Shown in pieces: positions 6,231 through 19,605 of a DNA stretch of 23,951 bases. The DNA is from a virus. Within the stretch, counting starts at the first letter, position 1, and each line of letters opens with the position of its first letter. Under the pieces are notes generated by a model. It was not told the DNA's origin. It worked only from the letters and a program-made list of their open reading frames with translations, and ran no database searches. The stretch covers positions 1 to 23,951 of the IMG/VR virus record IMGVR_UViG_3300026533_000018. One strand, 5' to 3'. The position numbers and the translations under genes were made by a program.

Positions 6231-7937
6231 ATGACCAAAACCTTCATAGAAGAGAATCTTCTAAATAAATCAGGTAAATTAATCCACCAAAAACTACATC
6301 TTACAACTCTCACAAAAGAAGAACTTTATCTTATCTTACACGAAACTGAACCTTTAAAATGCACTAAATGCAACGAAAATCATAGATTTGTTTCTTTTAC
6401 TTCAGGTTACTACCCTAAATGTTCTAATAGAAAATGCAACTTAAAAAAGAGGGATATTTCTGAATTCACCAAAGAACAAATTAAAAAACAGATAAATGAA
6501 AAAGGAATCAACTCTACTTTTACTGTTGGTATCTCTAATTCAGTACAAGAAATATACAATCATTATTATTCACTAAAGAATCCTATTTGTCCTAAATGCA
6601 AAGAACCTTTTGGGTTTGATTCTTTCAGTAAAGGATATTCTACTAAATGTAGAACTAAAGATTGTATAGTGCAACAAAGGAAGGAAACCACATTAAAAAA
6701 CCACGGAGATGAGAACTTCAACAACAGACCCAAAATGTTCAAGACCAAACTAAAGAACCACGGAGACCAGAACTTCGTTAATTCCAAAAAAGCAAAAGAA
6801 ACAAAACTAAAAAACCACGGAAATTCTAATTTTGTTAATATAGAAAAGAGACTAGAAACAATAAAGGAAATGAAAAAATGTTTTATTTCGAGGAATAAAA
6901 AATATCCTAAGTACAATCTAGATAAATTAACAAAAGAATACATAGAGCAGAACTTCATAGAAGAAGGTATTCTACAAAAGGATGAATTTATGAAGTTCTA
7001 TAACTGCAAGGATAATTGGATGAATGTAAATCTAAGAAACCTAGGTGTTGAACTAAAAAGAGATAAAGTAGAAGAGAGAATAAATGCTTTATTCGATAAT
7101 CAGTTTATTCTCCGAGATAAAAACCTAATCAAACCCTTAGAAATAGATTTATTAAACGAAGAGCATAAATTCGGTATTGAATATAATGGTCTTATGTGGC
7201 ATTCAGAGGGTGAATCTAAGTACCCTATGTTCAACAACAAAAATTTAAGAAAGAATCACCTCAATAAAACAAATCTAATGGAAGATAAAGGATATTCACT
7301 GTTTCATATATTCGAGAATGAGTTCCTAGACCAGAACAAAAAGGAAATATGGATTTCAGTAATTAACGACAGGTTAAATCTTAATACTAAAATAGGAGCA
7401 AGAAAATGTTCAGTAAAAGAAGTACCAACACAAGAAGCAAGAGATTTCATCAACGAAAACCATCTTCAAGGATATAATAATGCTAGTGTAAAAATAGGAC
7501 TTTATTATTCTGGTCAGCTTTATTCCATAATGACATTCGGGAAATCAAGATTCAACAAGAAATATGATTATGAACTTATTAGATTTTGCACTAAGAAGGG
7601 TTATACAGTACAAGGAGGCGGTTCTAAGCTACTTTCTTACTTTGAACGAACATTTGCACCAAAAAGCCTTATTTCGTATGCCAACAGGAGATGGTCACAA
7701 GGTAATTTTTATGTTAAAGCAGGATTTGATTTCATAGAAAACACTCCACCTAACTATTTCTATTTTAAAGAGAATTCACTTGAGTTAAAATCTAGAAATC
7801 AGTTTCAAAAACATAAATTAAAAGGAATCCTTAAAGACTTCTATCCTGAACTTACTGAAACACAAAATATGTTCAACAACAATTATAGAAAAATATACGA
7901 CTCAGGAAATAAAGTATTCATCAAAAGTTATAAGTAA
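6231..7937 (+). CDS. Free-standing homing endonuclease, Vsr-like (EDxHD) type
   Basis: A 568-residue DNA-binding nuclease set between two tail genes. Residues 44-69 and 120-145 each form a C-x2-C...C-x4-C zinc motif. Residues 154-203 hold three repeats of the (T)KLKNHGDxNFVN type, common in phage homing endonucleases. The likely nuclease core is LEIDLLNEEHKFGIEYNG (residues 303-320) followed by MWH at 322-324, giving acidic and histidine residues in the pattern of the Vsr-like EDxHD family (e.g. I-Bth0305I). Residues 394-515 form the C-terminal domain seen with many such proteins (NENHLQGYNNASVKIGLYYS, ELIRFCTKKG, PPNYFYFK). It cuts DNA lacking the gene so that repair copies it. No intron is visible. 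AAGGA precedes the start but lies in a hairpin. Confidence 0.78.
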   Translation: MTKTFIEENLLNKSGKLIHQKLHLTTLTKEELYLILHETEPLKCTKCNENHRFVSFTSGYYPKCSNRKCNLKKRDISEFTKEQIKKQINEKGINSTFTVGISNSVQEIYNHYYSLKNPICPKCKEPFGFDSFSKGYSTKCRTKDCIVQQRKETTLKNHGDENFNNRPKMFKTKLKNHGDQNFVNSKKAKETKLKNHGNSNFVNIEKRLETIKEMKKCFISRNKKYPKYNLDKLTKEYIEQNFIEEGILQKDEFMKFYNCKDNWMNVNLRNLGVELKRDKVEERINALFDNQFILRDKNLIKPLEIDLLNEEHKFGIEYNGLMWHSEGESKYPMFNNKNLRKNHLNKTNLMEDKGYSLFHIFENEFLDQNKKEIWISVINDRLNLNTKIGARKCSVKEVPTQEARDFINENHLQGYNNASVKIGLYYSGQLYSIMTFGKSRFNKKYDYELIRFCTKKGYTVQGGGSKLLSYFERTFAPKSLISYANRRWSQGNFYVKAGFDFIENTPPNYFYFKENSLELKSRNQFQKHKLKGILKDFYPELTETQNMFNNNYRKIYDSGNKVFIKSYK

Positions 7938-7956
7938 TAAAAAAAGGATTACTTAT
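7929..7956 (+). promoter_or_regulatory. Translation-start hairpin and late-promoter-like octamer before gp15
   Basis: A perfect 9-bp stem pairs 7930-7938 (in the endonuclease stop region) with 7948-7956, which includes the first two bases of the gp15 start codon. The 9-nt loop holds the AAAAAAAGG part of the ribosome-binding site. The left arm overlaps TATAAGTA at 7929-7936, one base away from the late octamer. Transcripts beginning from this promoter would lose the left arm and be free for translation; read-through transcripts would fold unless ribosomes finish the endonuclease gene. Confidence 0.5.
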
Positions 7957-8704
7957 GGCTTATTACCACTCCTCTATAAAAAACTACACGATAGCTCTTC
8001 TAGACTTATTTAACGACATTCACATACTCAGACATTCAGAAGATGGTTCTGTAATAAAAGATATACAAGTCCCTATTAAATTCGGTAATAGGGACAAAGC
8101 TTTTATGATGCAAGAACACGATTTAGAGAACCTTAATTCAGGAAACATTAATTCACTTCCTAGGATGGTTCTTGCATTTGATGGAATGTCTAAAGCACCT
8201 CAAAGAGACACCAACAAACTAGCGAAGATGAATAAAAGATCCAAAGGTCCTGAATCTCTTATGTATGAGTTTCATTATAATGCTGTTGCTTATGATTTTA
8301 ATTTTACTGTTTTTGTTGCTACTAGGACATTCACCGATGCTACTATTATTATAGAACAAATAGCTCCTTTATTCAGACCAGATATAACACTAAAAATAAG
8401 AGAATTGGATATACAAGATAAACCAACCTCAGTTCCTGTTCAACTAGGTGATTTTAGTATTGAATTACCTGATGAAATGGCTGAAGACCAAATAAGAATA
8501 ATAGAAGTAGAGTTTCCTTTAGTTCTAAAAGGGAATTTATATTTACCTATTAAAGATGCTTCTATTATTAAAGAAATAGAATTAAATATAAAAAACATAG
8601 AACAAGAAACTTCATCTAAAGGTTTTGAGTACGAAGTAGAATATACTGATGCACAAATAACCAACGATGGAATAAAAAATATGTTACCTAAGGAGGAATT
8701 ATAA
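7955..8704 (+). CDS. 15: Tail completion and sheath stabiliser protein gp15
   Basis: A 249-residue protein matching T4 gp15 (272) across most of its length: YYHSSIKNYTIALLDLFNDI (T4 FYNSSFRRYATLMGDLFSNI), the VPIKFGNRDKAFMM segment (T4 VPITYASKEHFMM), SLPRMVLAFDGMSKAPQRDT (T4 ILPRINLHLVDFSYNAPFKT), and the MYEFHYNAVAYDF with IIIEQIAPLFRPDI region (T4 MIYELSIFTRYEDD, IVEQILPYFQPHF). gp15 caps the finished sheath and tube and joins the tail to the head. The gene directly precedes the small terminase gene, as in T4. The ribosome-binding site AAAAAAAGGA lies in a hairpin loop whose stem covers the start codon. Confidence 0.87.
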   Translation: MAYYHSSIKNYTIALLDLFNDIHILRHSEDGSVIKDIQVPIKFGNRDKAFMMQEHDLENLNSGNINSLPRMVLAFDGMSKAPQRDTNKLAKMNKRSKGPESLMYEFHYNAVAYDFNFTVFVATRTFTDATIIIEQIAPLFRPDITLKIRELDIQDKPTSVPVQLGDFSIELPDEMAEDQIRIIEVEFPLVLKGNLYLPIKDASIIKEIELNIKNIEQETSSKGFEYEVEYTDAQITNDGIKNMLPKEEL

Positions 8705-10836: not shown

Positions 10837-11118
10837 TTAAGAAAAGATTATTCCGTGATTTAAGTAAAGTTTTTCACCTTCACTTGATATTTTTTCAGTT
10901 TTTATATTAAATTTGTATTTAGAATTTTTAAGAGAAGATTTTATTTTATTATAAATTTCATCTTCATTATCTGTTTTTGACATTATACTAGAGAAACGAA
11001 TTACTCCATCATATTTACCAAAAGTAACTTTAACTGGTAATGTTAATTTATTAAGTTTTGCTATTATATCCTCATCTGAATCTAAAGATTCAGTAATATA
11101 ATCTTTAAAATTTTTCAT
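10837..11118 (-). CDS. Putative capsid-targeted internal protein, 93 residues
   Basis: The protein begins MKNFKDYITE, which fits the T4 capsid-targeting sequence MKTYQEFIAE residue for residue in pattern (M-K-x-aromatic-x-acidic-aromatic-I-x-E). In T4 this peptide sends internal proteins IPI-IPIII into the prohead and the gp21 protease cuts after the glutamate at position 10. The rest (83 residues) has a small alpha-beta look: LPVKVTFGKYDGVIRFSS, a charged helix, then EKLYLNHGIIFS. It resembles the 103-residue protein at 11737-12048 in the order of these segments. AAGGAAAATAA precedes the start, which is 16 nt after the tRNA-Glu gene, so co-transcription with tRNAs is likely. Function inside the host is unknown. 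Confidence 0.6.
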   Translation of the reverse strand: MKNFKDYITESLDSDEDIIAKLNKLTLPVKVTFGKYDGVIRFSSIMSKTDNEDEIYNKIKSSLKNSKYKFNIKTEKISSEGEKLYLNHGIIFS

Positions 11119-11134
11119 TTATTTTCCTTTTTTT

Positions 11135-11209
11135 TGGTATCCCTAAGGAGATTTGAACTCCTATGGACGGAATGAAAATCCGTAATCCTAACCATTAGAT
11201 GATAGGGAT
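11135..11209 (-). tRNA. tRNA-Glu (UUC), copy 1
   Basis: On the minus strand a full cloverleaf can be drawn: acceptor ATCCCTA/TAGGGAT, D arm with GG, anticodon stem ACGGA/TCCGT with loop TTTTCAT giving anticodon UUC, T arm AGGAG-TTCAAAT-CTCCT, discriminator A and an encoded CCA. It reads GAA/GAG. It differs from copy 2 by a single base in the T loop. Confidence 0.92.
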
Positions 11210-11269
11210 ACATTTTTATTAAGTGTAATTTCCTAGTTTCACTATTTCTAGTTACTCAACACCACGAAA

Positions 11270-11303
11270 AGATAAACTAACTAATTGTTCTACCATCGCA
11301 TTA
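11270..11303 (-). pseudogene. Truncated tRNA-Asp copy (5' half only)
   Basis: This 34-base stretch is identical to the 5' part of the tRNA-Asp gene (11652-11728) and its upstream flank: acceptor 5' strand GCGATGG, D arm and the start of the anticodon stem. Beyond it the sequence diverges; no anticodon loop, T arm or 3' acceptor strand can be found in 11210-11269. It looks like a remnant of duplication or recombination. Confidence 0.7.
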
Positions 11304-11313
11304 TTATTTATTT

Positions 11314-11387
11314 TGGTAGGTTAAGAAGGATTCAAACCTTCGACTAATCTGTTATGATTTCAAAAAAGCCCATCGCATTATTAACCT
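11314..11387 (-). pseudogene. Scrambled tRNA-like sequence
   Basis: Acceptor AGGTTAA/TTAACCT, T arm GAAGG-TTTGAAT-CCTTC, discriminator A and CCA are intact, so the 3' half is a good tRNA. The D and anticodon region (37 bases) does not fold: the only helix is AATC/GATT around a six-base loop ATAACA. It contains AATAATGCGATGG, the tRNA-Asp 5' end with its upstream flank, suggesting an insertion by recombination. C56 is replaced by T. No identity can be assigned; it may be dead or a minimal substrate for RNA processing. Confidence 0.6.
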
Positions 11388-11391
11388 ATAT

Positions 11392-11466
11392 TGGTATCCC
11401 TAAGGAGATTCGAACTCCTATGGACGGAATGAAAATCCGTAATCCTAACCATTAGATGATAGGGAT
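11392..11466 (-). tRNA. tRNA-Glu (UUC), copy 2
   Basis: Same cloverleaf as copy 1: anticodon loop TTTTCAT (UUC), encoded CCA, T loop TTCGAAT instead of TTCAAAT. The pair brackets the truncated tRNA-Asp and the scrambled tRNA-like sequence, so the segment 11135-11466 is probably a duplication product. Confidence 0.92.
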
Positions 11467-11478
11467 GTATTCTTATTA

Positions 11479-11554
11479 TGGCTCCGGATGTTGGGCTCGA
11501 ACCAACGACTTAGTGATTAACAGTCACTCACTCTACCAACTGAGTTAATCCGGA
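11479..11554 (-). tRNA. tRNA-Asn (GUU)
   Basis: Canonical cloverleaf on the minus strand: acceptor TCCGGAT/ATCCGGA, D arm ACTC-AGTTGGTA-GAGT, anticodon stem AGTGA/TCACT with loop CTGTTAA (anticodon GUU), variable AAGTC, T arm GTTGG-TTCGAGC-CCAAC, discriminator G and encoded CCA. Confidence 0.94.
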
Positions 11555-11561
11555 ATATAAA

Positions 11562-11648
11562 TGGTGGAAACAGAAGGATTTGAACCTTCGAGAGTTTGAC
11601 CTCGCTCCCTTAGCAGAGGAGTGCAATACCAGACTATGCGATGTTTCC
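11562..11648 (-). tRNA. tRNA-Ser (GCU)
   Basis: Class II tRNA with a long variable arm (CGAGGTCAAACTCTC). Acceptor GGAAACA/TGTTTCC, anticodon stem CTCCT/GGGAG with loop CTGCTAA giving anticodon GCU, T arm GAAGG-TTCAAAT-CCTTC, discriminator A and encoded CCA. It reads AGC/AGT serine codons. Confidence 0.93.
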
Positions 11649-11651
11649 TAG

Positions 11652-11728
11652 TGGCGCGATGAATGGAATTTGCATCCACAACCTTCTCCTTGACAGGGAG
11701 ATAAACTAACTAATTGTTCTACCATCGC
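11652..11728 (-). tRNA. tRNA-Asp (GUC) with altered elbow
   Basis: Acceptor GCGATGG/TCATCGC, anticodon stem TCTCC/GGAGA with loop CTGTCAA (GUC), discriminator G and encoded CCA. The T loop is TGCAAAT (U55 replaced by G) and the D loop AATTAGTTA has A where G18 is expected, so the usual G18-U55 contact is changed on both sides. A15 faces T48, consistent with an A-U Levitt pair. Confidence 0.88.
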
Positions 11729-11736
11729 ATTACTAT

Positions 11737-12048
11737 TTATTTGGGGCTTATTACACCTCTTGTAACATAAACAGTTGATTCTTCATCATCATCGTCTAGA
11801 TAATCTGAAAGTATTTCAGTACTAACAACTAATTCAAAAGAGTTCAAACCTTCTATTTTTAATATTTGTTTTTTTATCTCTGAAGTACAATCTTCAACTG
11901 ATTCAGTTGATTTAAAACTTATACTGTCACCCTTCGAAGTAAAATGAACTAAAGTAGGATATTTTTGTCCTTTAAGTGCTTTAAAAACCTTAAGCAACTC
12001 ATCTTTTCCTTTGCTTTTTTCGTTTACGTATTCTTTAAATGTTTTCAT
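11737..12048 (-). CDS. Putative capsid-targeted internal protein, 103 residues
   Basis: The N-terminus MKTFKEYVNE is the closest match in the window to the T4 capsid-targeting sequence MKTYQEFIAE, again with glutamate at position 10 preceded by V-N (prohead protease prefers I/L-x-E). The remaining 93 residues run: charged helix KGKDELLKVFKALKG, strands TLVHFTSKGDSISFKSTES, helix TSEIKKQILKIEG, strand SFELVVSTE, an acidic run DDDDEE and a final TVYVTRGVISPK. The strand-helix order and the terminal hydrophobic-G-V/I-I segment resemble the 93-residue neighbour, so the two may be paralogues. AAAAAAGGAG lies upstream. It sits between tRNA-Thr and tRNA-Asp genes, 9 nt from the latter. No enzymatic motif seen. 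Confidence 0.62.
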   Translation of the reverse strand: MKTFKEYVNEKSKGKDELLKVFKALKGQKYPTLVHFTSKGDSISFKSTESVEDCTSEIKKQILKIEGLNSFELVVSTEILSDYLDDDDEESTVYVTRGVISPK

Positions 12049-12070
12049 TTAATATCTCCTTTTTTTATTA

Positions 12071-12146
12071 TGGTGCTGGATATCAGAATCTAACTGATGA
12101 CCTCTTCACTACCAATGAAGTGCTCTAACAACTGAGCTAATCCAGC
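12071..12146 (-). tRNA. tRNA-Thr (GGU) with swapped elbow pair
   Basis: Acceptor GCTGGAT/ATCCAGC, D arm GCTC-AGTTGTTA-GAGC, anticodon stem CTTCA/TGAAG with loop TTGGTAG (anticodon GGU), variable AGGTC, T arm ATCAG-TTAGATT-CTGAT, discriminator A and encoded CCA. G19 is replaced by T and C56 by A, which swaps the conserved G19-C56 tertiary pair for U19-A56. It lies 22 nt upstream of the 103-residue CTS gene. Confidence 0.91.
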
Positions 12147-12189
12147 TTTTATTGCTTTTTGTTGTTAATATTATACGAAGTTAATGCTT

Positions 12190-12224
12190 AAACATACATT
12201 AAAAAGAGAGATTAATGTATGTTT
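12190..12224. terminator. 13-bp hairpin after the 345-residue CTS gene
   Basis: A perfect 13-bp stem (12190-12202 with 12212-12224) and a 9-nt loop lie 6 nt beyond the minus-strand stop at 12231. There is no T-run on the minus strand after it, so it may be a weak terminator, an RNase stop or a processing site separating the mRNA from the tRNA-Thr downstream. Confidence 0.45.
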
Positions 12225-12230
12225 CTTATT

Positions 12231-13268
12231 TTATTTGTACTGAGTATATTTCATTATATAAGTTAATATTTTCTCTAACTCTTTTTCAGAATCAATTCTT
12301 GTCCAAGTTTCAATTAAATCATCTATATCTGGGTTTGTAAAACCTTCGTAACCTAAGTGATGTTTATGGTCACTATGTATAGGGTCAAAACTAACCCAAA
12401 CTCGATATTCTTTTGATTTTTTGAAATATGTAATATTAGGTTGAAAACTAGAACCTTTGTCTGGATATCCTACTATCCACAATCTCATTTTTTCTTCATC
12501 ATCAATATCTACTTTCCAAGTACCAGTTTTAATTCCATTAACTTTTAAAGAAACTCTATTGATTATTTTTAGCATTTTAGCCTTAAATTCATCTTTAGCC
12601 ATTTCTCTATCATCAGCATCTTTGTACATAGTGTATTTAATACCTGCTCTAACACCAGCGGCGAATTGCTCTAATGTTTTAAAATTTTGAGAATCATCTC
12701 TAAATTTAACATTAGGATTTTTAAATGTTTCAATACCAGCATCTCTAGGGTCAAAATACCAATCAAGATAATATTCTTTGTGACCAAAATCATACCCCAT
12801 AGTAGGTCCAAAATCACAACTATCAGGAGTGTCACCCGTATCAATAATAACTTGATGTATATTTGATTCTACTATACCCCAAGGATGTTTTTTACCAGTT
12901 AATTTTTTAAGCTCTCTTTCTACTATTTCAATCATTCTATTACCTATAGCTTCACCTTGGTCAATATAACTATTTACTTCTGAACCTGTGAATTCTAGAA
13001 CTACTTTTTTTCTATAAATTAATTCAAATCTTTTTCCGCCCATACCTTCATAAGCGTGTAATTTATATTTTGGTTTTAATGTTTTAATTTTATCAACTAT
13101 GAGTTTACCTATATTCTCTTCATCAATACCCCAATCAGCATCAATTGATTTAAATTTAGCTTCATTATTTTTGAAAGTTACTTCCCAAGTTGAAAATTCT
13201 AATTCCATATCCGAATCATCTGGGTCTGAAATTCTTGCTTCGTTTATATATTCCTTGAATGTTGTCAT
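12231..13268 (-). CDS. Putative capsid-targeted internal protein, 345 residues
   Basis: It begins MTTFKEYINE, with the same ten-residue pattern as the other candidate capsid-targeted proteins and the T4 internal proteins; cleavage after E10 would leave a 335-residue acidic protein starting ARISDPDD. No known domain recognised. It seems internally duplicated: FDP (172-174), FKNP (182-185) and KYTMYK (211-216) recur as FDP (294-296), FTNP (310-313) and KYTQYK (340-345), with an alternating strand pattern and many tryptophans and tyrosines (STWEVTF, YYLDWYF, MRLWIVGYP, YRVWVSF). It has no signal peptide or membrane segment. AAAAAGGAG precedes the start. T4 comparisons suggest delivery into the host with DNA, with an effect on host defence or DNA handling unknown. 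Confidence 0.6.
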   Translation of the reverse strand: MTTFKEYINEARISDPDDSDMELEFSTWEVTFKNNEAKFKSIDADWGIDEENIGKLIVDKIKTLKPKYKLHAYEGMGGKRFELIYRKKVVLEFTGSEVNSYIDQGEAIGNRMIEIVERELKKLTGKKHPWGIVESNIHQVIIDTGDTPDSCDFGPTMGYDFGHKEYYLDWYFDPRDAGIETFKNPNVKFRDDSQNFKTLEQFAAGVRAGIKYTMYKDADDREMAKDEFKAKMLKIINRVSLKVNGIKTGTWKVDIDDEEKMRLWIVGYPDKGSSFQPNITYFKKSKEYRVWVSFDPIHSDHKHHLGYEGFTNPDIDDLIETWTRIDSEKELEKILTYIMKYTQYK

Positions 13269-13291
13269 TTATTACTCCTTTTTATTTTTAT

Positions 13292-13534
13292 TTATTGATT
13301 AATGTAATCTGGCTCTGCTGTTTTTACTTCTTCAAAATTAGAATTTTTAGAATCTATTTTCTCAAGAAGTGAATTTTTAGCTACTCCAGCAATGTTGGTT
13401 AAAACAGATAATCGTAGAATTTCATTATCCACTATCCTAATTTCATTTAGTGATTTTTGTGATTCTTCATCAAGTGAATCCAAGTAATAACTAACACCGT
13501 TTATACTAATTTCCTGTCTTTTGACTGTTTCCAT
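13292..13534 (-). CDS. Small DUF6447-like protein
   Basis: The frame is open from 13588, but the start at 13534 is preferred: METVKRQEISINGVSYYL follows AAAAAAAGGA by five bases, whereas the upstream ATG has no such site. The 80-residue product has the shape of a common small phage family (DUF6447-like): a short strand pair ISINGVSYYLDSL, then a helix SQKSLNEIRIVDNEILRLSV, a gap and a second helix. The family has no known function. The start lies inside the end of the upstream gene (overlap 13506-13534), so expression is probably coupled. Confidence 0.5.
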   Translation of the reverse strand: METVKRQEISINGVSYYLDSLDEESQKSLNEIRIVDNEILRLSVLTNIAGVAKNSLLEKIDSKNSNFEEVKTAEPDYINQ

Positions 13535-13877
13535 CTTCATCCTTTTTTTCGTGTATGAACATATAATTTCTATGTTCAGCAAATTCATTCATAGATAAAC
13601 AATCATCTAAAATAGCACTAAAATCTATTTTTGTAGGTAAAATTCTTATCCCTATATCATCTATCCAATCAAACAAAACCCCATTCTTAATGAGGAAAGT
13701 TTCCAACCCGTATAAGAAATCTAGACTATACATCATTCTAGTATCAGTTTTAGGGTTGGAACTCCATTCCTTAAAAAGGTTATAGTGTTCATTGTTTAAA
13801 GATATTTTTTTACCTAGATTAAATATGAACTCAGCATTATAATCTACATCTTCAAGCAATACAACCCAAAGAGTCAT
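13506..13877 (-). CDS. Unknown protein, 123 residues
   Basis: No family recognised. It is an acidic, aromatic-rich protein (MTLWVVLLEDVDYNAEFIFN, MMYSLDFLYGLETFLIKNG, FDWIDDIGIRILP) with a polar C-terminal tail (EKKDEDGNSQKTGN) that overlaps the next gene's start. Its ATG follows the stop of the gene at 13878 directly (TAAATG), a coupled junction in a chain of small minus-strand genes running from nrdB. Confidence 0.55.
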   Translation of the reverse strand: MTLWVVLLEDVDYNAEFIFNLGKKISLNNEHYNLFKEWSSNPKTDTRMMYSLDFLYGLETFLIKNGVLFDWIDDIGIRILPTKIDFSAILDDCLSMNEFAEHRNYMFIHEKKDEDGNSQKTGN

Positions 13878-14168
13878 TTATCTACCTATTCGCTGAATAT
13901 TGATATGTTCAGAATCTGAGTTTCTCATAAAAGGAATAACGATTACCTTTTCGGGTGATTTAAAGTTAGCCGCGATAAGTCTATAGATATTCGCTATGTT
14001 ACTATGTAGTGAACCTTTGGTTTCATATCTAAGCATAACTTTTAATTTAGTTACTTCCTGTTCACTAAGATTAATCGCTGTTACATCTTCTAAGATTTCA
14101 GATACGAACTTATCATCTTTCTTAATTTCTTTGAACGCATTTTGTAAAGTCTCTTTTTTTGGTTTCAT
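13878..14168 (-). CDS. Unknown helical protein, 96 residues
   Basis: No family recognised. It is lysine-rich and predicted helical at the start (MKPKKETLQNAFKEIKKDDK), followed by SEQEVTKLKVMLRYETKGSL and a C-terminal part with VIVIPFMRNSDSEHINIQR. AAGGAAGAAATAA lies upstream, and the start falls inside the end of the Acb1-like gene (overlap 14122-14168). The unusually long overlap suggests that the two evolved together or that the Acb1-like C-terminus is dispensable. Confidence 0.55.
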   Translation of the reverse strand: MKPKKETLQNAFKEIKKDDKFVSEILEDVTAINLSEQEVTKLKVMLRYETKGSLHSNIANIYRLIAANFKSPEKVIVIPFMRNSDSEHINIQRIGR

Positions 14169-14598
14169 TTATTTCTTCCTTTAGATTGTAGTTTTTTATT
14201 TTTTCTTCTGTGAAATTAAGATTAAAATTTATATCTTTTAATTTACTTAAATCTATATTTTTATCCACTTTCCCTAGACTTATATGTGGTTTGTATATAA
14301 GTCTAGATTTCTTAAAATTATTTATTTTGGTTAGTTCTTTATTTCTAGCTTTCAATTCTCTTGAATTTAATTCTATTACTAAAGTATCCTTCTTAGTACC
14401 AAACAAACTGAACTTCTTGAAAGTGCAAGAAATATTAATTCTACTTTCAAGAATGAGGTTTTCCTTGAACTCAGCATCAAAAATAATAGTGCAATGCAAA
14501 TCATTATTAATCCGGCATTCTCCGAAGTGCTGACCTATTCTATTTTGTGTTTCATTACTTAATTCAGCACTGATAAAAGCTCCTGTTCTAGATTTCAT
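14122..14598 (-). CDS. 2H phosphoesterase, Acb1-like anti-CBASS candidate
   Basis: The frame allows starts at 14607 (MVGMKSRTGAF) or 14598 (MKSRTGAF); the latter is chosen because GGATGG is better spaced, but it is not decisive. With the longer start numbered 1, the two catalytic motifs of 2H phosphoesterases are H38-C-T40 and H108-I-S110, about 70 residues apart. Around them are TGAFISAELS (first strand), DLHCTIIFDAEF, an LVIELNSRELKARNKEL segment and YKPHISLGK, all in the order seen in the T4 gene 57B product Acb1, which cleaves cyclic di- and trinucleotide signals and so blocks CBASS defence. The C-terminus is lysine-rich. LigT-like RNA 2',3'-phosphoesterases are the alternative. It overlaps the nrdB end and the next gene's start. 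Confidence 0.6.
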   Translation of the reverse strand: MKSRTGAFISAELSNETQNRIGQHFGECRINNDLHCTIIFDAEFKENLILESRINISCTFKKFSLFGTKKDTLVIELNSRELKARNKELTKINNFKKSRLIYKPHISLGKVDKNIDLSKLKDINFNLNFTEEKIKNYNLKEEINETKKRDFTKCVQRN

Positions 14599-15628
14599 CC
14601 CAACCATCCAAAATCTCAGGTGATTTGTATGTCATAGAACTCACCTCAAACTGATTACTTCTATTAGAATCTTCACTATCTACAGCCGCGATTTTCTCTA
14701 AGTGCAAGTAAGGATTAATTTTTACCTCAGGAAAATCTTGTTCGAAACCAATATCTTTAAGTCTTTTGTTTGCTAGGTAATGAGTATAATCAATTATTGT
14801 TTCTTCTCTAAAACCAAGGATTTTATCTCCAAGTGTATCAATAGAAAACTTCTTTTCCCACTTCACAGCAACATTGAACATATCCTTAACCATATCTTTT
14901 ATTTCTGGTGTCCATAGTTCTTTATCTTCATCCATAGAGATTTGAATCATTCTTTTAAATGCTGAACAATGAACATTTTCATCTCTTTGAATATATCTAA
15001 TTTCAGCATCAGTAGATATCATAAGACCTCTCGAAGCTAGATTATGAAAGAATTGAAATCCGTTATAGAAGTAAAGACCTTCAAGTAAGTAGTTAGCAAC
15101 TAACATCACAACAAAGTTCTTGAATGAGTCTTCTGCTAAAGATTTTTCATAAAAATCAGTTATAATATTAATTCTATCATAAAGGACTTTATTCGTCTTC
15201 CATCTATATGTTATTTCCTGTATTTTTTCAGGGTCTTGAACTACATTATCCAAAGTATATCCATAAGATCTACTATGCAATGCTTCATCCCAAGTTTGTC
15301 TTGCTAACCAAAAAACCACTTCAGGAAGAGTAATGAAGTTAGATATATTAGGTAAATTATTGGTTTGAATACTATCTAAAAATATTAAGAAACTAATAAT
15401 TGTATCGTAGGCTTCTATTTCTTCAACTGAAAGAACATTAAAATATTGTTTTCTGTCATTAGCAAAATCTTTAACTTTCTGAGGTAACCAGTTGTTAGAG
15501 TATGCCACATTAACATACTCTATGAACTCAGGATATTTAATATTAGACATATCTAAAATATTGGTTATATTCCCACCAAATAATCTTTTCTCTGCATCAT
15601 CTCCGTTAGGATTGAATAATTTCTTCAT
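14588..15628 (-). CDS. nrdB: Class Ia ribonucleotide reductase small subunit NrdB
   Basis: A 346-residue protein that provides the tyrosyl radical for deoxynucleotide synthesis. Iron and radical residues are in place: D85 in FLDSIQ, E115 and H118 in WDEALHSRSY, radical tyrosine Y122, a glutamate in the LLEGLYFYNGF segment, and the E-x-x-H of RDENVHCSAF. The E115/H118/Y122 numbering happens to equal that of E. coli NrdB. Closest resemblance is to the E. coli class Ia type, and length is near the usual 375. It partners with NrdA, coded just upstream (58 nt away). AAAGGA precedes the start. Its last 11 bases overlap the Acb1-like gene. Confidence 0.95.
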   Translation of the reverse strand: MKKLFNPNGDDAEKRLFGGNITNILDMSNIKYPEFIEYVNVAYSNNWLPQKVKDFANDRKQYFNVLSVEEIEAYDTIISFLIFLDSIQTNNLPNISNFITLPEVVFWLARQTWDEALHSRSYGYTLDNVVQDPEKIQEITYRWKTNKVLYDRINIITDFYEKSLAEDSFKNFVVMLVANYLLEGLYFYNGFQFFHNLASRGLMISTDAEIRYIQRDENVHCSAFKRMIQISMDEDKELWTPEIKDMVKDMFNVAVKWEKKFSIDTLGDKILGFREETIIDYTHYLANKRLKDIGFEQDFPEVKINPYLHLEKIAAVDSEDSNRSNQFEVSSMTYKSPEILDGWDEI

Positions 15629-15686
15629 TGTTTTCCTTTAATTTTTTATTTCTAAGAACTCCTTAGTATAATTATTTAGTTATTCT

Positions 15687-18600
15687 TCAATTTCCACAAT
15701 CGGAGCAACCACCTTCAATAGTCATTGAATAGTAAACAGTTTTTAAATCTCCGTATAGGAAAGCATCTATTAAAGCATCTGATACTTCATTTATTTTGCA
15801 TCCTTCAGGGGTAATATTCATTTCCATAGATAAACCTGTATCTATCCACTTCTGCATCCTAGAAGTAGCATTAATAACAACTCTAGGATGATACTGAAAC
15901 TTAGTCTTGTAGTACCAATATTTTTCATTAATAAACCTAGGAAGAATAGGTAGACTCATTTCACCTAATGTTTGAACCATCTCTTTATTGTATGCTGGAA
16001 GATAGGAAGCAACTGCACCCATCAAAATACCAGTCCCTGAATTCGGAGCAAAGGCAAGTAAATAAAAGTTTCTAATTCCGTGTTCTAAAATATCTTTTTT
16101 CAACTGCACCCAATCAAAACCATTAAGTGAAAGTTCATTAAGTTCTTCAGGGTCTCTACCTAAAATTTTAGTGTAGTTTTCTTTCTTGAACAAAGGATAA
16201 GGACTATAATCTTTTGCTAACTGAATACTTGACCTATAAGCATAATAAGATAGTTTTTCAGTCATCTGTTCTAAGAAAAGTAGACCATCATCTGTATCAT
16301 AAAGTTTATTATTGTAAGCCATATAATCAGCAACCCCAACGGCTCCTAAACCCACATTTCTAATTTGTCTAGACATATTGTCAGCTTCGAGAACTGGCGA
16401 TGTTCCTTCATCTATACTAACATCCAGTGCATAAACTGCTGAATCAACTACTCCAGCAATGAACTCATCTGTTTTTCCTACTAGATTTGTCATCACAATA
16501 GAAATTAAATTGCAACTATGTGAAAGTCCGTTAGTTTCTGTTGTTATTCTGTTATCTAAATCAGATTCTTCTTTCCACTTTGTTGCTGGTTTAGTAAAAG
16601 ACCAGGACTCTTGACAGTTATGAACTAAAATTCCATTAGCAAAGAAATTATGGTTATCTTCAATGTTGATATCATATATTTTTTCTTTTGTTTTTGTTGT
16701 TCTTATTTCTTTAATTTTGGTTATAGAACCATCGACAATAAGAGTATCTGTAAGGAGTAAATCTTCTGCTAGAACATAATCTCTATCAACAGTAAAAATC
16801 TTATGGTCAGGAGTACATCTTATTGTATTTTTTAGCTCATCTTCTATTTCAATAAGTTCAGTTGAAACACCCATATCTAAGAACTCATAACAATTTTTAT
16901 ACTCTATTGCATTAGTATCAGTATTGAATGATTTAACTTGATGTCCTGGTCTTACTTCGTCTAATCTAATTGTTTTTTCTTCATCTTGTAGTTTAACTTG
17001 AACTTCTGTATCACCCGTCATACATAAATTAGCACACTTGGCTACACCTCCATCTGGGTCATACTTCATATAATTAGAAAAATTAAGTTTGTCTTTATTA
17101 CAAATATAAGCATCACCAATTTCAATCCACATCCAAAGCATATCTTTCCATAGTTTTTTTGCTGATATTTTCTTAGTGAACTTCTTGAACTTTGTTTTTG
17201 CTAGTTCTTCTATATGTTTATGAACTGCAAGAAGTTCATCTTCTATACATTCTGTAACATCAGTACCCGTTAGTTTTTTGTACTCGTAATGATTAAACAT
17301 CCAGACATCTTTATCTTCTTTAACTGCTTTTAAGAAGTGTTGATCTACAACAACCTGAGGAAATATATCGAAGGCTTTATCCCTAAGGTCTCCTTTAAGT
17401 TCAGATTTAATATCTAAGAATGAAGGCATATCTAAGTGCCACCAATCAAGTGCTAAGGTGATTGCTCCAGGTCTTGTGTTATGAACTACGTGAAATATAT
17501 CTCCATCTTTAGAACAAAAATAGTTATTATTATCTTTAACTGTAATATCAACAAAATCCTCTTCTTTTAAAGGATTATTATCTATTTTAGTTACTTGAAC
17601 TTTTTCATTAAGTGAATTAATAGTTATATCATTAATTTTTATTTCTTCTGCTTTAACATAAATGTATTCACCATTTTTATAGATTAGAGTTGGATGCCAA
17701 TTAGAAGTAATATAACTTTCTGAATCACTAAACTCTATCTTAATTTGGTCTTTATGTTTAACCTCGGGTTTAAAAGTTCCTAAGACTTCTTTAAACTCTT
17801 GTTTTTCTGTTTCTATATTAAAAGAGTTAATTAAATCTCCCTTTTGAACATCTTTAATTTCAATAGTACAAATAACAGTATCTCTAAGAACTTCAACCAT
17901 AGTATTTTTTTCAACACATCCACTCTGGTTTACTGCAACTGCAATATCATTAATTATTTTAGCCCATTTAGTAATATTATTTGATTTAACTATTTTGTAA
18001 GAGTAAGTGTCTTCGGGTCTAATTTTACCTAGGTACCAGCCTATCCCTCCTCCATTTTTAGAAATTAAAGCCATATCAGTAAATCCTTTCATTAAGGCTG
18101 TTAATGAATCAGGAGTTTCTCCTATAAAACAAGAACCAACATTTCCATCAGGTCTTCTAAGATTTCTTTTGAAAGGAGTTGCTAATGAAATATATTGATA
18201 ATGAATATCTCTGAACATTTTTTGGAATCTGTTTTTTTGTCCGTTTTCAGATTTAGTAAGAATAAGAGTATTAACAATATCAGATAAGATAGGATATTCT
18301 ATAATTCCTCTTTTGTTTTTAATAAGATATTTTGCTTTAAGCATTTCTACTTGAGCGAATGTTTGATTCCAATCATTGTTTTTTTCTTCATCTTTGATGA
18401 TTTTATCTATGAATTTAATTTCTTTTTCTGTCATTCTGTTTAAGAACTCTAGAATATCTTCTCTGTAATAGTTATTCCTAACAAGGTACTTAATATGCTC
18501 TTGCCAAGCTTCAGGTTCGAGTTTAGTTGATTTATGAACTCCACGATACAGTTGATACATATCTGCTCTACCTACTGCTAAATCCCATCTGGTGTCATTG

Positions 18601-18806
18601 ATATCTATCTTTGTTCTGCCTGAGTTAATAATTTGTTCTTGTATTAGTTTTGATTCGATAGTTTCTTTATTGGGGAAGTTAAGGATAGATTCATATTCTA
18701 TTGCTGATAAACCAGTCCCTTTAACTGCGAAATCAATTAGTCTTTGAATTTTAGACATTTGAAAAGGTTCAATATCTTCATTTCTCTTTTTTGTGTACTT
18801 AATCAT
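15687..18806 (-). CDS. nrdA: Ribonucleotide reductase large subunit NrdA with two inteins
   Basis: The 1039-residue precursor would yield a 756-residue NrdA after removal of two inteins (E. coli 761). The N-terminus (1-95) is an ATP cone (activity control). Active-site residues: C226 in VGSCFIG, the radical cysteine C731 in NLC-QE (N593 before it, E733 after it), C765 in SHSCNL, the radical-transfer tyrosines Y1025/Y1026 in LKTVYYS, and a C-terminal redox pair C1034/C1037 (GGCSDCGN). It reduces ribonucleoside diphosphates with NrdB. Intein 1 covers residues 297-443 between NQSG and TRPGA; intein 2 covers 595-730, directly before the radical cysteine. Start at 18806, followed closely downstream by nrdB. 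Confidence 0.94.
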   Translation of the reverse strand: MIKYTKKRNEDIEPFQMSKIQRLIDFAVKGTGLSAIEYESILNFPNKETIESKLIQEQIINSGRTKIDINDTRWDLAVGRADMYQLYRGVHKSTKLEPEAWQEHIKYLVRNNYYREDILEFLNRMTEKEIKFIDKIIKDEEKNNDWNQTFAQVEMLKAKYLIKNKRGIIEYPILSDIVNTLILTKSENGQKNRFQKMFRDIHYQYISLATPFKRNLRRPDGNVGSCFIGETPDSLTALMKGFTDMALISKNGGGIGWYLGKIRPEDTYSYKIVKSNNITKWAKIINDIAVAVNQSGCVEKNTMVEVLRDTVICTIEIKDVQKGDLINSFNIETEKQEFKEVLGTFKPEVKHKDQIKIEFSDSESYITSNWHPTLIYKNGEYIYVKAEEIKINDITINSLNEKVQVTKIDNNPLKEEDFVDITVKDNNNYFCSKDGDIFHVVHNTRPGAITLALDWWHLDMPSFLDIKSELKGDLRDKAFDIFPQVVVDQHFLKAVKEDKDVWMFNHYEYKKLTGTDVTECIEDELLAVHKHIEELAKTKFKKFTKKISAKKLWKDMLWMWIEIGDAYICNKDKLNFSNYMKYDPDGGVAKCANLCMTGDTEVQVKLQDEEKTIRLDEVRPGHQVKSFNTDTNAIEYKNCYEFLDMGVSTELIEIEDELKNTIRCTPDHKIFTVDRDYVLAEDLLLTDTLIVDGSITKIKEIRTTKTKEKIYDINIEDNHNFFANGILVHNCQESWSFTKPATKWKEESDLDNRITTETNGLSHSCNLISIVMTNLVGKTDEFIAGVVDSAVYALDVSIDEGTSPVLEADNMSRQIRNVGLGAVGVADYMAYNNKLYDTDDGLLFLEQMTEKLSYYAYRSSIQLAKDYSPYPLFKKENYTKILGRDPEELNELSLNGFDWVQLKKDILEHGIRNFYLLAFAPNSGTGILMGAVASYLPAYNKEMVQTLGEMSLPILPRFINEKYWYYKTKFQYHPRVVINATSRMQKWIDTGLSMEMNITPEGCKINEVSDALIDAFLYGDLKTVYYSMTIEGGCSDCGN
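16617..17024 (-). mobile_element. Mini-intein 2 in NrdA, at the active-site cysteine
   Basis: Residues 595-730 (136 aa). Block A CMTGDTEVQV, block B RCTPDHKIFTVD with the T-x-x-H motif, block F KIYDINIEDNHNFFA, and block G GILVHN followed by C+1. The +1 residue is the catalytic radical cysteine of NrdA, so unspliced enzyme is inactive. There is no endonuclease domain. All splicing residues (C1, TxxH, terminal HN, C+1) are present, so it should splice. Confidence 0.9.
17478..17918 (-). mobile_element. Mini-intein 1 in NrdA
   Basis: Residues 297-443 (147 aa) between exteins AVNQSG and TRPGAITLALDWWHLD. Block A CVEKNTMVEV, block B ITSNWHPTLIY (T-x-x-x-H variant), block F DFVDITVKDNNNYFCSKDG, block G IFHVVHN, and threonine at +1. 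No endonuclease domain, so it is a fixed mini-intein. Block B is slightly unusual because the residue before histidine is W, where D is common. Confidence 0.88.
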
Positions 18807-18819
18807 TTTTAATAGCCCT

Positions 18820-19203
18820 TTATGCTTTTATTTTAATTCCGTTAGGTTTATAATCATCTGCTAAAGTTTTAAGTAATCTAACTCTGTCTGCTTCTGTTTG
18901 TCTTTCTATATCTTCTTTTCTATCAAGATACTTTGAACTTTCAACATATTCTTCGAAGTGATTATCATAAGCATATCTATTGGTTTCATAGTCATCCAAA
19001 ATAGTTTTAATCATATTTTCTTCAGGTTTTGTGAAGTTGCACTTTTTATTTTTAATATATATTTTCTTGAACTCTTTTTTATTGTAATCAAGAATTTTAC
19101 CACCTGATGTTTCTTCTGTTTTGTATTCAAATATAATACTTCTTTTAGAGTCACTTTTTACTAGATATACTGTTTCTTTAGTTTCTTTGTTCTTATAAAA
19201 CAC
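18820..19203 (-). CDS. Unknown lysine-rich protein, 127 residues, GTG start
   Basis: No family recognised. The start is GTG at 19203 (GTG TTT TAT AAG), supported by AAAGGAAAC just upstream; no ATG is available with such a site. The protein is highly charged, with strands at the start (ETVYLVKSDSKRSIIFEYK) and a helical second half (ENMIKTILDDYETNRY, DIERQTEADRVRLLKTLADD). It ends 13 nt before nrdA. Another explanation for its place, such as control of nrdA, is not shown by sequence. Confidence 0.55.
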   Translation of the reverse strand: MFYKNKETKETVYLVKSDSKRSIIFEYKTEETSGGKILDYNKKEFKKIYIKNKKCNFTKPEENMIKTILDDYETNRYAYDNHFEEYVESSKYLDRKEDIERQTEADRVRLLKTLADDYKPNGIKIKA

Positions 19204-19221
19204 TTGTTTCCTTTTATTTTT

Positions 19222-19246
19222 CTAATAGTCCTTTTTGGACTATTAG
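19222..19246. terminator. 10-bp hairpin at the end of the 120-residue CTS gene
   Basis: A perfect 10-bp stem (19222-19231 with 19237-19246) and 5-base loop contains the stop codon of the minus-strand gene at 19243. On the minus strand no T-run follows, so it is more likely a pause or mRNA end-protecting hairpin, or a terminator acting on the plus strand, where TTTATTTTAT follows. Confidence 0.4.
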
Positions 19247-19605
19247 TTTATTTTATCTTCAATAGATTCAATAGCTGAATCTACAACCGCTCTTACACTT
19301 TTATCCACTATTACTTCATCAGCATCAAAATCTCTTTTTCCTGGATAGAATTTTTGATGCTCTTTAGCGAACTCTTCGATATAATCTTCAAAATTTAATG
19401 TTTTTGCTTTTTGAAAAATCTTCATTAAATCCTTGTAGGCTTTTGAACTTCTTTCAAAAGTAGCCCAATCTCCGTTAGAAGCTATAATCTCCATATCATA
19501 TCCACTAAGATGAATAGTGAAATCCTTGCTTGAACCTATAATTTTAGTAGGTATTACTGTTACAGAGTCAGTGGACTCTGTAATAAATTCTCTGAATGTT
19601 TTCAT
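19243..19605 (-). CDS. Putative capsid-targeted internal protein, 120 residues
   Basis: It starts MKTFREFITE, matching the T4 capsid-targeting sequence MKTYQEFIAE in eight positions by identity or conservative change, with E10 after I-T as the prohead protease prefers. The mature part would begin STDSVTVIPTKIIG and includes a strand-rich section (DFTIHLSGYDMEIIASNGDW) and acidic helices (NFEDYIEEFAKEHQKF, RAVVDSAIESIEDKIN). No domain recognised. AAAAAGAGG precedes the start, and a late-promoter-like octamer (TATAAATT) lies 20 nt upstream, unlike most nearby minus-strand genes; late expression would suit a head protein. It lies apart from the three other CTS genes. Confidence 0.62.
   Translation of the reverse strand: MKTFREFITESTDSVTVIPTKIIGSSKDFTIHLSGYDMEIIASNGDWATFERSSKAYKDLMKIFQKAKTLNFEDYIEEFAKEHQKFYPGKRDFDADEVIVDKSVRAVVDSAIESIEDKIN

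Follow-up and report, generated by a model that had tools for sequence, protein, structure and literature searches.

Four proteins, P0001 to P0004, encoded on a 24 kb viral DNA fragment (23,951 nt of record IMGVR_UViG_3300026533_000018, analysed in full and referred to here as the window), very likely belong to the T4-type internal proteins, in a phage that is T4-like but divergent; they would be packaged, trimmed after Glu-10 and injected. The coordinates of the four genes and a shared ten-residue leader with Glu at position 10 had been put forward in an earlier reading of the DNA alone (the sequence-only reading); both were correct, and all four genes lie on the minus strand (Table 1). Each starts with ATG and is preceded by a purine-rich ribosome-binding site. 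The identification of the leader as a T4-type capsid-targeting sequence is supported by its sequence, its exact end point, the residue bias at the putative cleavage site, a specificity test on T4, its restriction to phages and synteny with the T4 ipI locus. This class of proteins has so far been read mainly in T-even phages, and the leader is carried here by four proteins without a known family, encoded by a phage only distantly related to T4.

It is established that T4 has a capsid-targeting sequence and that gp21 removes it (Mullaney and Black 1996, cited in PMC5694885), and T-even phages carry many internal protein (ip) genes that are recognised by this leader (Repoila 1994, cited in PMC12373910). 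The T4 proteins Ip1-3 are injected and have the leader alone in common, and every one of them inhibits a single GmrSD Type IV restriction enzyme (PMC12373910); IpIII is functional without its leader when expressed in the host (PMC9391042). Like the window proteins, IpI-III are diverse and share a 10-residue leader that has Glu in the tenth position (MKTYQEFIAE; IpI starts MKTFKEF), although P0003, with 345 residues, is larger than the T4 Ips (95-193 residues), and no match to IpI-III was found for the mature parts of P0001-P0004. Internal head proteins are also targeted and trimmed by the prohead protease in giant phages, as is the case for the ejection proteins of SPN3US (PMC5694885), but several propeptides of that type exceed 100 residues, as compared to 10 in the window proteins. 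A search of open-licence full texts returned no paper on the leader peptide itself.

In order to measure likeness to the leader, we built a position-specific profile of residues 2-10 from 106 non-redundant leader-bearing proteins of other viral contigs, collected among the listed matches to a degenerate DNA pattern that was based on the leaders of the window. P0001, P0002, P0003 and P0004 scored 19.4, 26.9, 23.8 and 23.3 bits, respectively. Of the 31 window genes, the fifth-best scored -3.1 bits, and 19.4 bits was not reached at any of the 6,537 positions inside window proteins (best 13.7). When the profile was applied to the 267 open reading frames (ORFs) of T4, the top scores were those of gp61.1 (29.8 bits), ipIII (22.3), ipII (22.3) and ipI (14.3), and the next ORF scored 0.9 bits. 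The likeness to T4 claimed at the outset holds, since ipII and ipIII both start with MKTYQEFIAE; the deposited annotation of IpII places the leader at -10 to -1. A looser leader pattern also picks gp24 and Alt in T4.

The leader is largely confined to viral sequences. Its DNA pattern was found in at least 119 stretches of viral contigs, versus none for a pattern of equal composition in shuffled order, and bacterial and archaeal genomes gave 3 matches in 257 Gb. Two of these three carry the same protein, which by eye is HigA-type antitoxin-like; such look-alikes from Lachnospiraceae, which start MKTFKEFVDEQLKDPEFAAE (L244 2094, L246 7881), represent a false-positive class for leader searches. 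Tags cluster in the same loci: when the other ORFs of tag-selected loci were scored, 55 of 1,478 had at least 14, as compared to 7 of 1,489 ORFs from random viral loci (P ~8e-11), a count somewhat inflated by related contigs common to several loci.

Analysis of the 106 leaders showed that similarity stops at residue 10-11, with Met-1 and Glu-10 invariant, both being residues that the selection pattern also demanded, and Phe-4 nearly so. Glu outnumbers Asp at position 10 by 93:1, although the pattern permitted both. At residue 11, which was unconstrained, Ala and Ser are the commonest; Ala accounts for 27% versus a background of 6.8% (P ~7e-11), and Ala, Gly, Ser or Asn are present in 52 of the 106 leaders versus 27% expected (P ~1.5e-6). 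The preference for Glu-10 and the enrichment of Ala after it are the pattern expected for gp21 cleavage, as far as sequence can indicate it. In the window proteins, the residue that follows Glu-10 is Ser in P0001 and P0004, Ala in P0003 and Lys in P0002. The propeptides of gp23 in tagged contigs have plausible ends that come close to the form seen in the leader, [FY][ILV]xE followed by a small residue (EFLYE/G, LNE/N and MTE/G, and FLTE/A in a T4-like isolate of this set); the T4 site is the established one among them, and the remaining ends are our own reading. The gp21 substrates gp24 and Alt of T4 are cut after Glu-10 of an N-terminal leader, as proposed for the window proteins, and Alt is virion-borne. 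Their leaders differ (MELITELFDE in Alt, MAKINELLRE in gp24) and are not recognised by the environmental profile, and no ADP-ribosyltransferase domain was matched in the tagged window proteins, unlike Alt.

Table 1. Features of the window. A slash marks the proposed cleavage site.
Feature	Position	Strand	Remarks
Tagged protein P0001, 93 aa, MKNFKDYITE/S	10837..11118	-	leader codons 11089-11118
Tagged protein P0002, 103 aa, MKTFKEYVNE/K	11737..12048	-	leader codons 12019-12048
Tagged protein P0003, 345 aa, MTTFKEYINE/A	12231..13268	-	leader codons 13239-13268
Tagged protein P0004, 120 aa, MKTFREFITE/S	19243..19605	-	leader codons 19576-19605
Six tRNA genes (Glu, Glu, Asn, Ser, Asp, Thr)	11135..12146	-	interleaved with P0001-P0003
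Acb1-like (anti-CBASS 2H phosphoesterase) gene, untagged	14122..14607	-	43.5 bits, cut-off 27
gp15-type tail sheath stabiliser	7955..8704	+	Pfam T4-gp15_tss 3e-47

The arrangement of the locus provides evidence that is independent of the leader sequence and had not been expected beforehand. On the minus strand of T4, 57B (Acb1, 202.7 bits), ipI and the tRNA region follow each other in that order, and the minus strand of the window carries an Acb1-like gene, the tagged genes P0001-P0003 and a tRNA cluster in the same order. Three small ORFs separate the Acb1-like gene from P0003 in the window, and in T4 three small ORFs are located between ipI and the tRNAs. The Acb1-like protein of the window displays two HxT/S motifs, HCTI and HISL. 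P0004 lies outside the ipI-like locus, with a small gene downstream and a ClpP-like gene upstream. A tRNA neighbourhood was also seen in 11 of 119 other tagged loci versus 4 of 119 loci, an association that is suggestive only, because several of the loci are near-duplicates. Two nearly identical tRNA-Glu genes lie at 11135-11728 (minus strand), with truncated tRNA-Asp-like remnants between them (~11240-11310); the tRNA-Glu copies beside the tagged genes are a recent tRNA duplication.

Since a gp15-type tail sheath stabiliser is present, the source phage is classed from its gene content as a T4-like myovirus, distant from T4. Pfam and PHROG profiles also identified a baseplate hub (T4_baseplate, 2e-26) and a tail tube (PHROG 45, 2e-35), and the tail tubes in the window are gp19-type. 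The gp15 protein is 25% identical to that of T4 in the alignment, and its closest relatives are from an uncultured contig (64%), Vibrio phage Va1 (~40%) and Campylobacter phages (38-39%). A search of viral contigs for close relatives of the tail tube found none.

In the course of infection that we propose, the leader would pull each tagged protein into the prohead core during head assembly, and a gp21-type (S77) prohead protease would cut it after Glu-10. The remainder of each protein would stay with the packaged DNA, enter the host together with it and act as soon as infection begins; a host defence would be its most likely target, as is the case for T4 IpI-III. A counter-defence role is likely for at least one of P0001-P0004.

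The sequence-only reading had suggested that such cargo may be injected effectors or counter-defence proteins, and a counter-defence role is supported by the nature of the proteins on which the leader is found elsewhere. Among 25 of the 29 Pfam families listed for the 106 tagged proteins, annotations include S-AdoMet lyase (3), ADP-ribosyltransferase, Acb1, zeta toxin, GNAT, NUDIX, nucleotidyltransferase, kinase and DPBB lytic-transglycosylase domains. By comparison, 106 length-matched untagged proteins from the same loci are annotated, among 25 of the 63 families listed, as ribonucleotide reductase, thymidylate synthase, clamp loader, terminase, tail, neck, scaffold and S77 protease. These family names are annotations from sequence, and several cases were individually confirmed: an Acb1 domain at residues 44-145 behind MKTFKEYINE (L106 1442-1972), a tagged Acb1 (MKTFLEYVTE/G) directly downstream of gp23 (L137 2748-3197, G038), and S-AdoMet-lyase-like domains with the leader on L004, L005 and L076. 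Related forms are found in cultured phages: the Acb1 of Aeromonas phage phiWae14 (L392 598-1095) starts with MIRSFSEFITE/A, and a lyase-like protein of the Prochlorococcus phage P-TIM68 (L390) has the variant leader MKTYKEFIQDIQE/S. In the open-licence full texts, we found no report of the leader on Acb1 or S-AdoMet lyases, nor any survey outside T-even phages.

Side observations from the same sample include S-AdoMet-lyase-family proteins being among the commonest tagged proteins, and relatives of these with variant leaders occurring in cultured marine cyanophages (P-TIM68 and the Synechococcus phage S-H34, L391). T4's own Acb1 is untagged, unlike the homologs of L137, L106 and phiWae14. A contig whose gp15 is 39% identical (G074, L261) encodes proteins with shorter, variant leader-like starts, MTFKSEFITE/K and MFKEMFTE/A (51489-52295 and 55285-56019).

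The effectors had been called possibly undescribed, which stands for the protein families and fails for the mechanism, known in T-even phages (PMC12373910); what is new is the members and the breadth of the cargo, the kind of system being already known. We lean, by a small measure, towards the view that uncultured and cyanobacterial T4-like phages could use T4-type capsid targeting as a general code for loading cargo, in which the leader would be exchanged among many families and would load ready-made counter-defence enzymes (Acb1, S-AdoMet-lyase-like and ADP-ribosyltransferase-like proteins, and unknowns such as P0001-P0004) that act before phage gene expression. If so, reading leaders in sequence data would directly list injected effectors. 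The profile proved specific when applied to T4, and in other phages it detects Acb1- and S-AdoMet-lyase-like proteins that bear the tag; a test of ten residues could therefore pick injected, probably counter-defence, proteins of unknown fold out of metagenomes.

Several observations weigh against the assignment of P0001-P0004 to the internal proteins. The profile is partly circular, its training proteins having been picked with a pattern derived from the window leaders, and more weight is therefore placed on the other specificity tests. P0002 carries Lys, not a small residue, after Glu-10. T4 late promoter motifs (TATAAATA) are absent upstream of the tagged genes. Neither an S77 (gp21-type) protease gene nor a gp23 gene was seen in the window, where no gp21 is to be found because the fragment is without head genes; S77 proteases are present in the gp15 relatives G075, G076 and G077. 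Tagged contigs of at least 20 kb carry S77 in 10 of 24 cases versus 9 of 38 random contigs (P=0.16), and Gp23 was found in 13 of 31 tagged records versus 11 of 38 random ones, the random sample having been drawn with a 14-base pattern that replaced an earlier 18-base pattern giving 2 contigs. Co-occurrence of either gene, nearly as frequent in random contigs, was thus rejected as proof of capsid targeting. Finally, the closest relative by gp15 (64%) has no strong tags, and Campylobacter phage NCTC12673, considered as a tagged cultured relative, has no strong tag either. Since neither of these carries strong tags, tag use differs between lineages, as would be the case for accessory cargo.

The leader could also mark building blocks of the prohead core, similar to gp67 and gp68, that are packaged and largely degraded or structural, rather than injected effectors. 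A tagged 64-residue protein (MKTFKEFITEK..., L128 1227-1418, G023) occupies the gp67/68 position, with the portal region on one side and the S77 protease on the other; T4 gp24 is likewise cut after a similar leader; and a tagged family of 52-63 residues, Gly-rich, basic and gp61.1-like, looks structural or DNA-binding and not enzymatic. However, P0003 has 345 residues, P0001-P0003 are located at the ipI-like locus near Acb1 and tRNAs, outside the head cluster, and enzyme domains are frequent on tagged proteins elsewhere, so that we regard a core role as improbable. The T4 protein gp61.1 itself (AF158101 18966-19130, L148; 54 residues, MKTFKEFIKED...), which had the top profile score of all T4 ORFs, is possibly a fourth tagged T4 internal protein, judging by its leader. 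It resembles a small Gly-rich, Lys/Arg-tailed tagged family from environmental contigs (e.g. L044, L045, L056, L081, L095).

That the four genes merely inherited a common 5' end by duplication or recombination, the leader having no targeting role, finds some ground in the paralog-like P0001 and P0002. Alignment of these two proteins covers their whole length, with E=2e-4 when the leader is included and P ~0.03 by shuffling when it is not, and they may be distant paralogs; the suggestion that the four proteins are unrelated is slightly overstated for this pair. It stands for P0003 and P0004, which show no similarity beyond the leader to P0001/P0002 or to each other. The same peptide is found on ~100 different proteins, and in the window it is kept though synonymous codons vary among the four leaders (TTT/TTC, AAA/AAG, GAA/GAG, ATT/ATA), making this reading very improbable. 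An amphipathic N-terminal helix of other use (membrane contact or oligomerisation), or a chance match, seems just as improbable: the two HigA-like matches indicate that isolated look-alikes exist, but prokaryote DNA contains so few matches, neither the abrupt end at Glu-10 nor the bias towards small residues at position 11 is a helix feature, and in T4 the profile picks the known internal proteins plus gp61.1.

P0001-P0004 had no significant match to a known family in profile libraries that included a defence-system library; the single weak match of the latter among window proteins was at chance level. P0004 is the sole one of the four with a weak match to PHROG 2667, 'internal head protein' (E=0.013), which is N-terminal only (residues 1-40). 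The predicted structure of P0001 has an overall predicted local distance difference test (pLDDT) value of ~81 and displays a confident small alpha/beta (ferredoxin-like) domain, preceded by leader residues with a mean pLDDT of 50 (residues 1-10); the model would fit a folded cargo that carries a detachable tag. A fold search with P0001 returned ferredoxin-like look-alikes (Z 6-8.6), scores in the range typical of common arrangements, with no functional signal. The predicted structure of P0003 (pLDDT 38) was set aside, and no close relatives of this protein were found in viral contigs or phage records. Inspection by eye and similar predicted secondary structure had suggested that P0003 shares a domain with P0001/P0002, but sequence statistics gave no support for it.

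Two untagged genes of the window also deserve mention. A 568-residue protein with a weak match to the Mom family is encoded between the tail tube and gp15 genes (6231-7937, plus strand); its relatives lie near gp15 in G073 and G074, and it is perhaps a mobile gene. The large subunit of ribonucleotide reductase (15687-18806, minus strand) carries two insertions that are intein-like by eye, with HN/Cys junctions, and the ribonucleotide reductase of Campylobacter phage IBB_35 is annotated with such intein insertions too.

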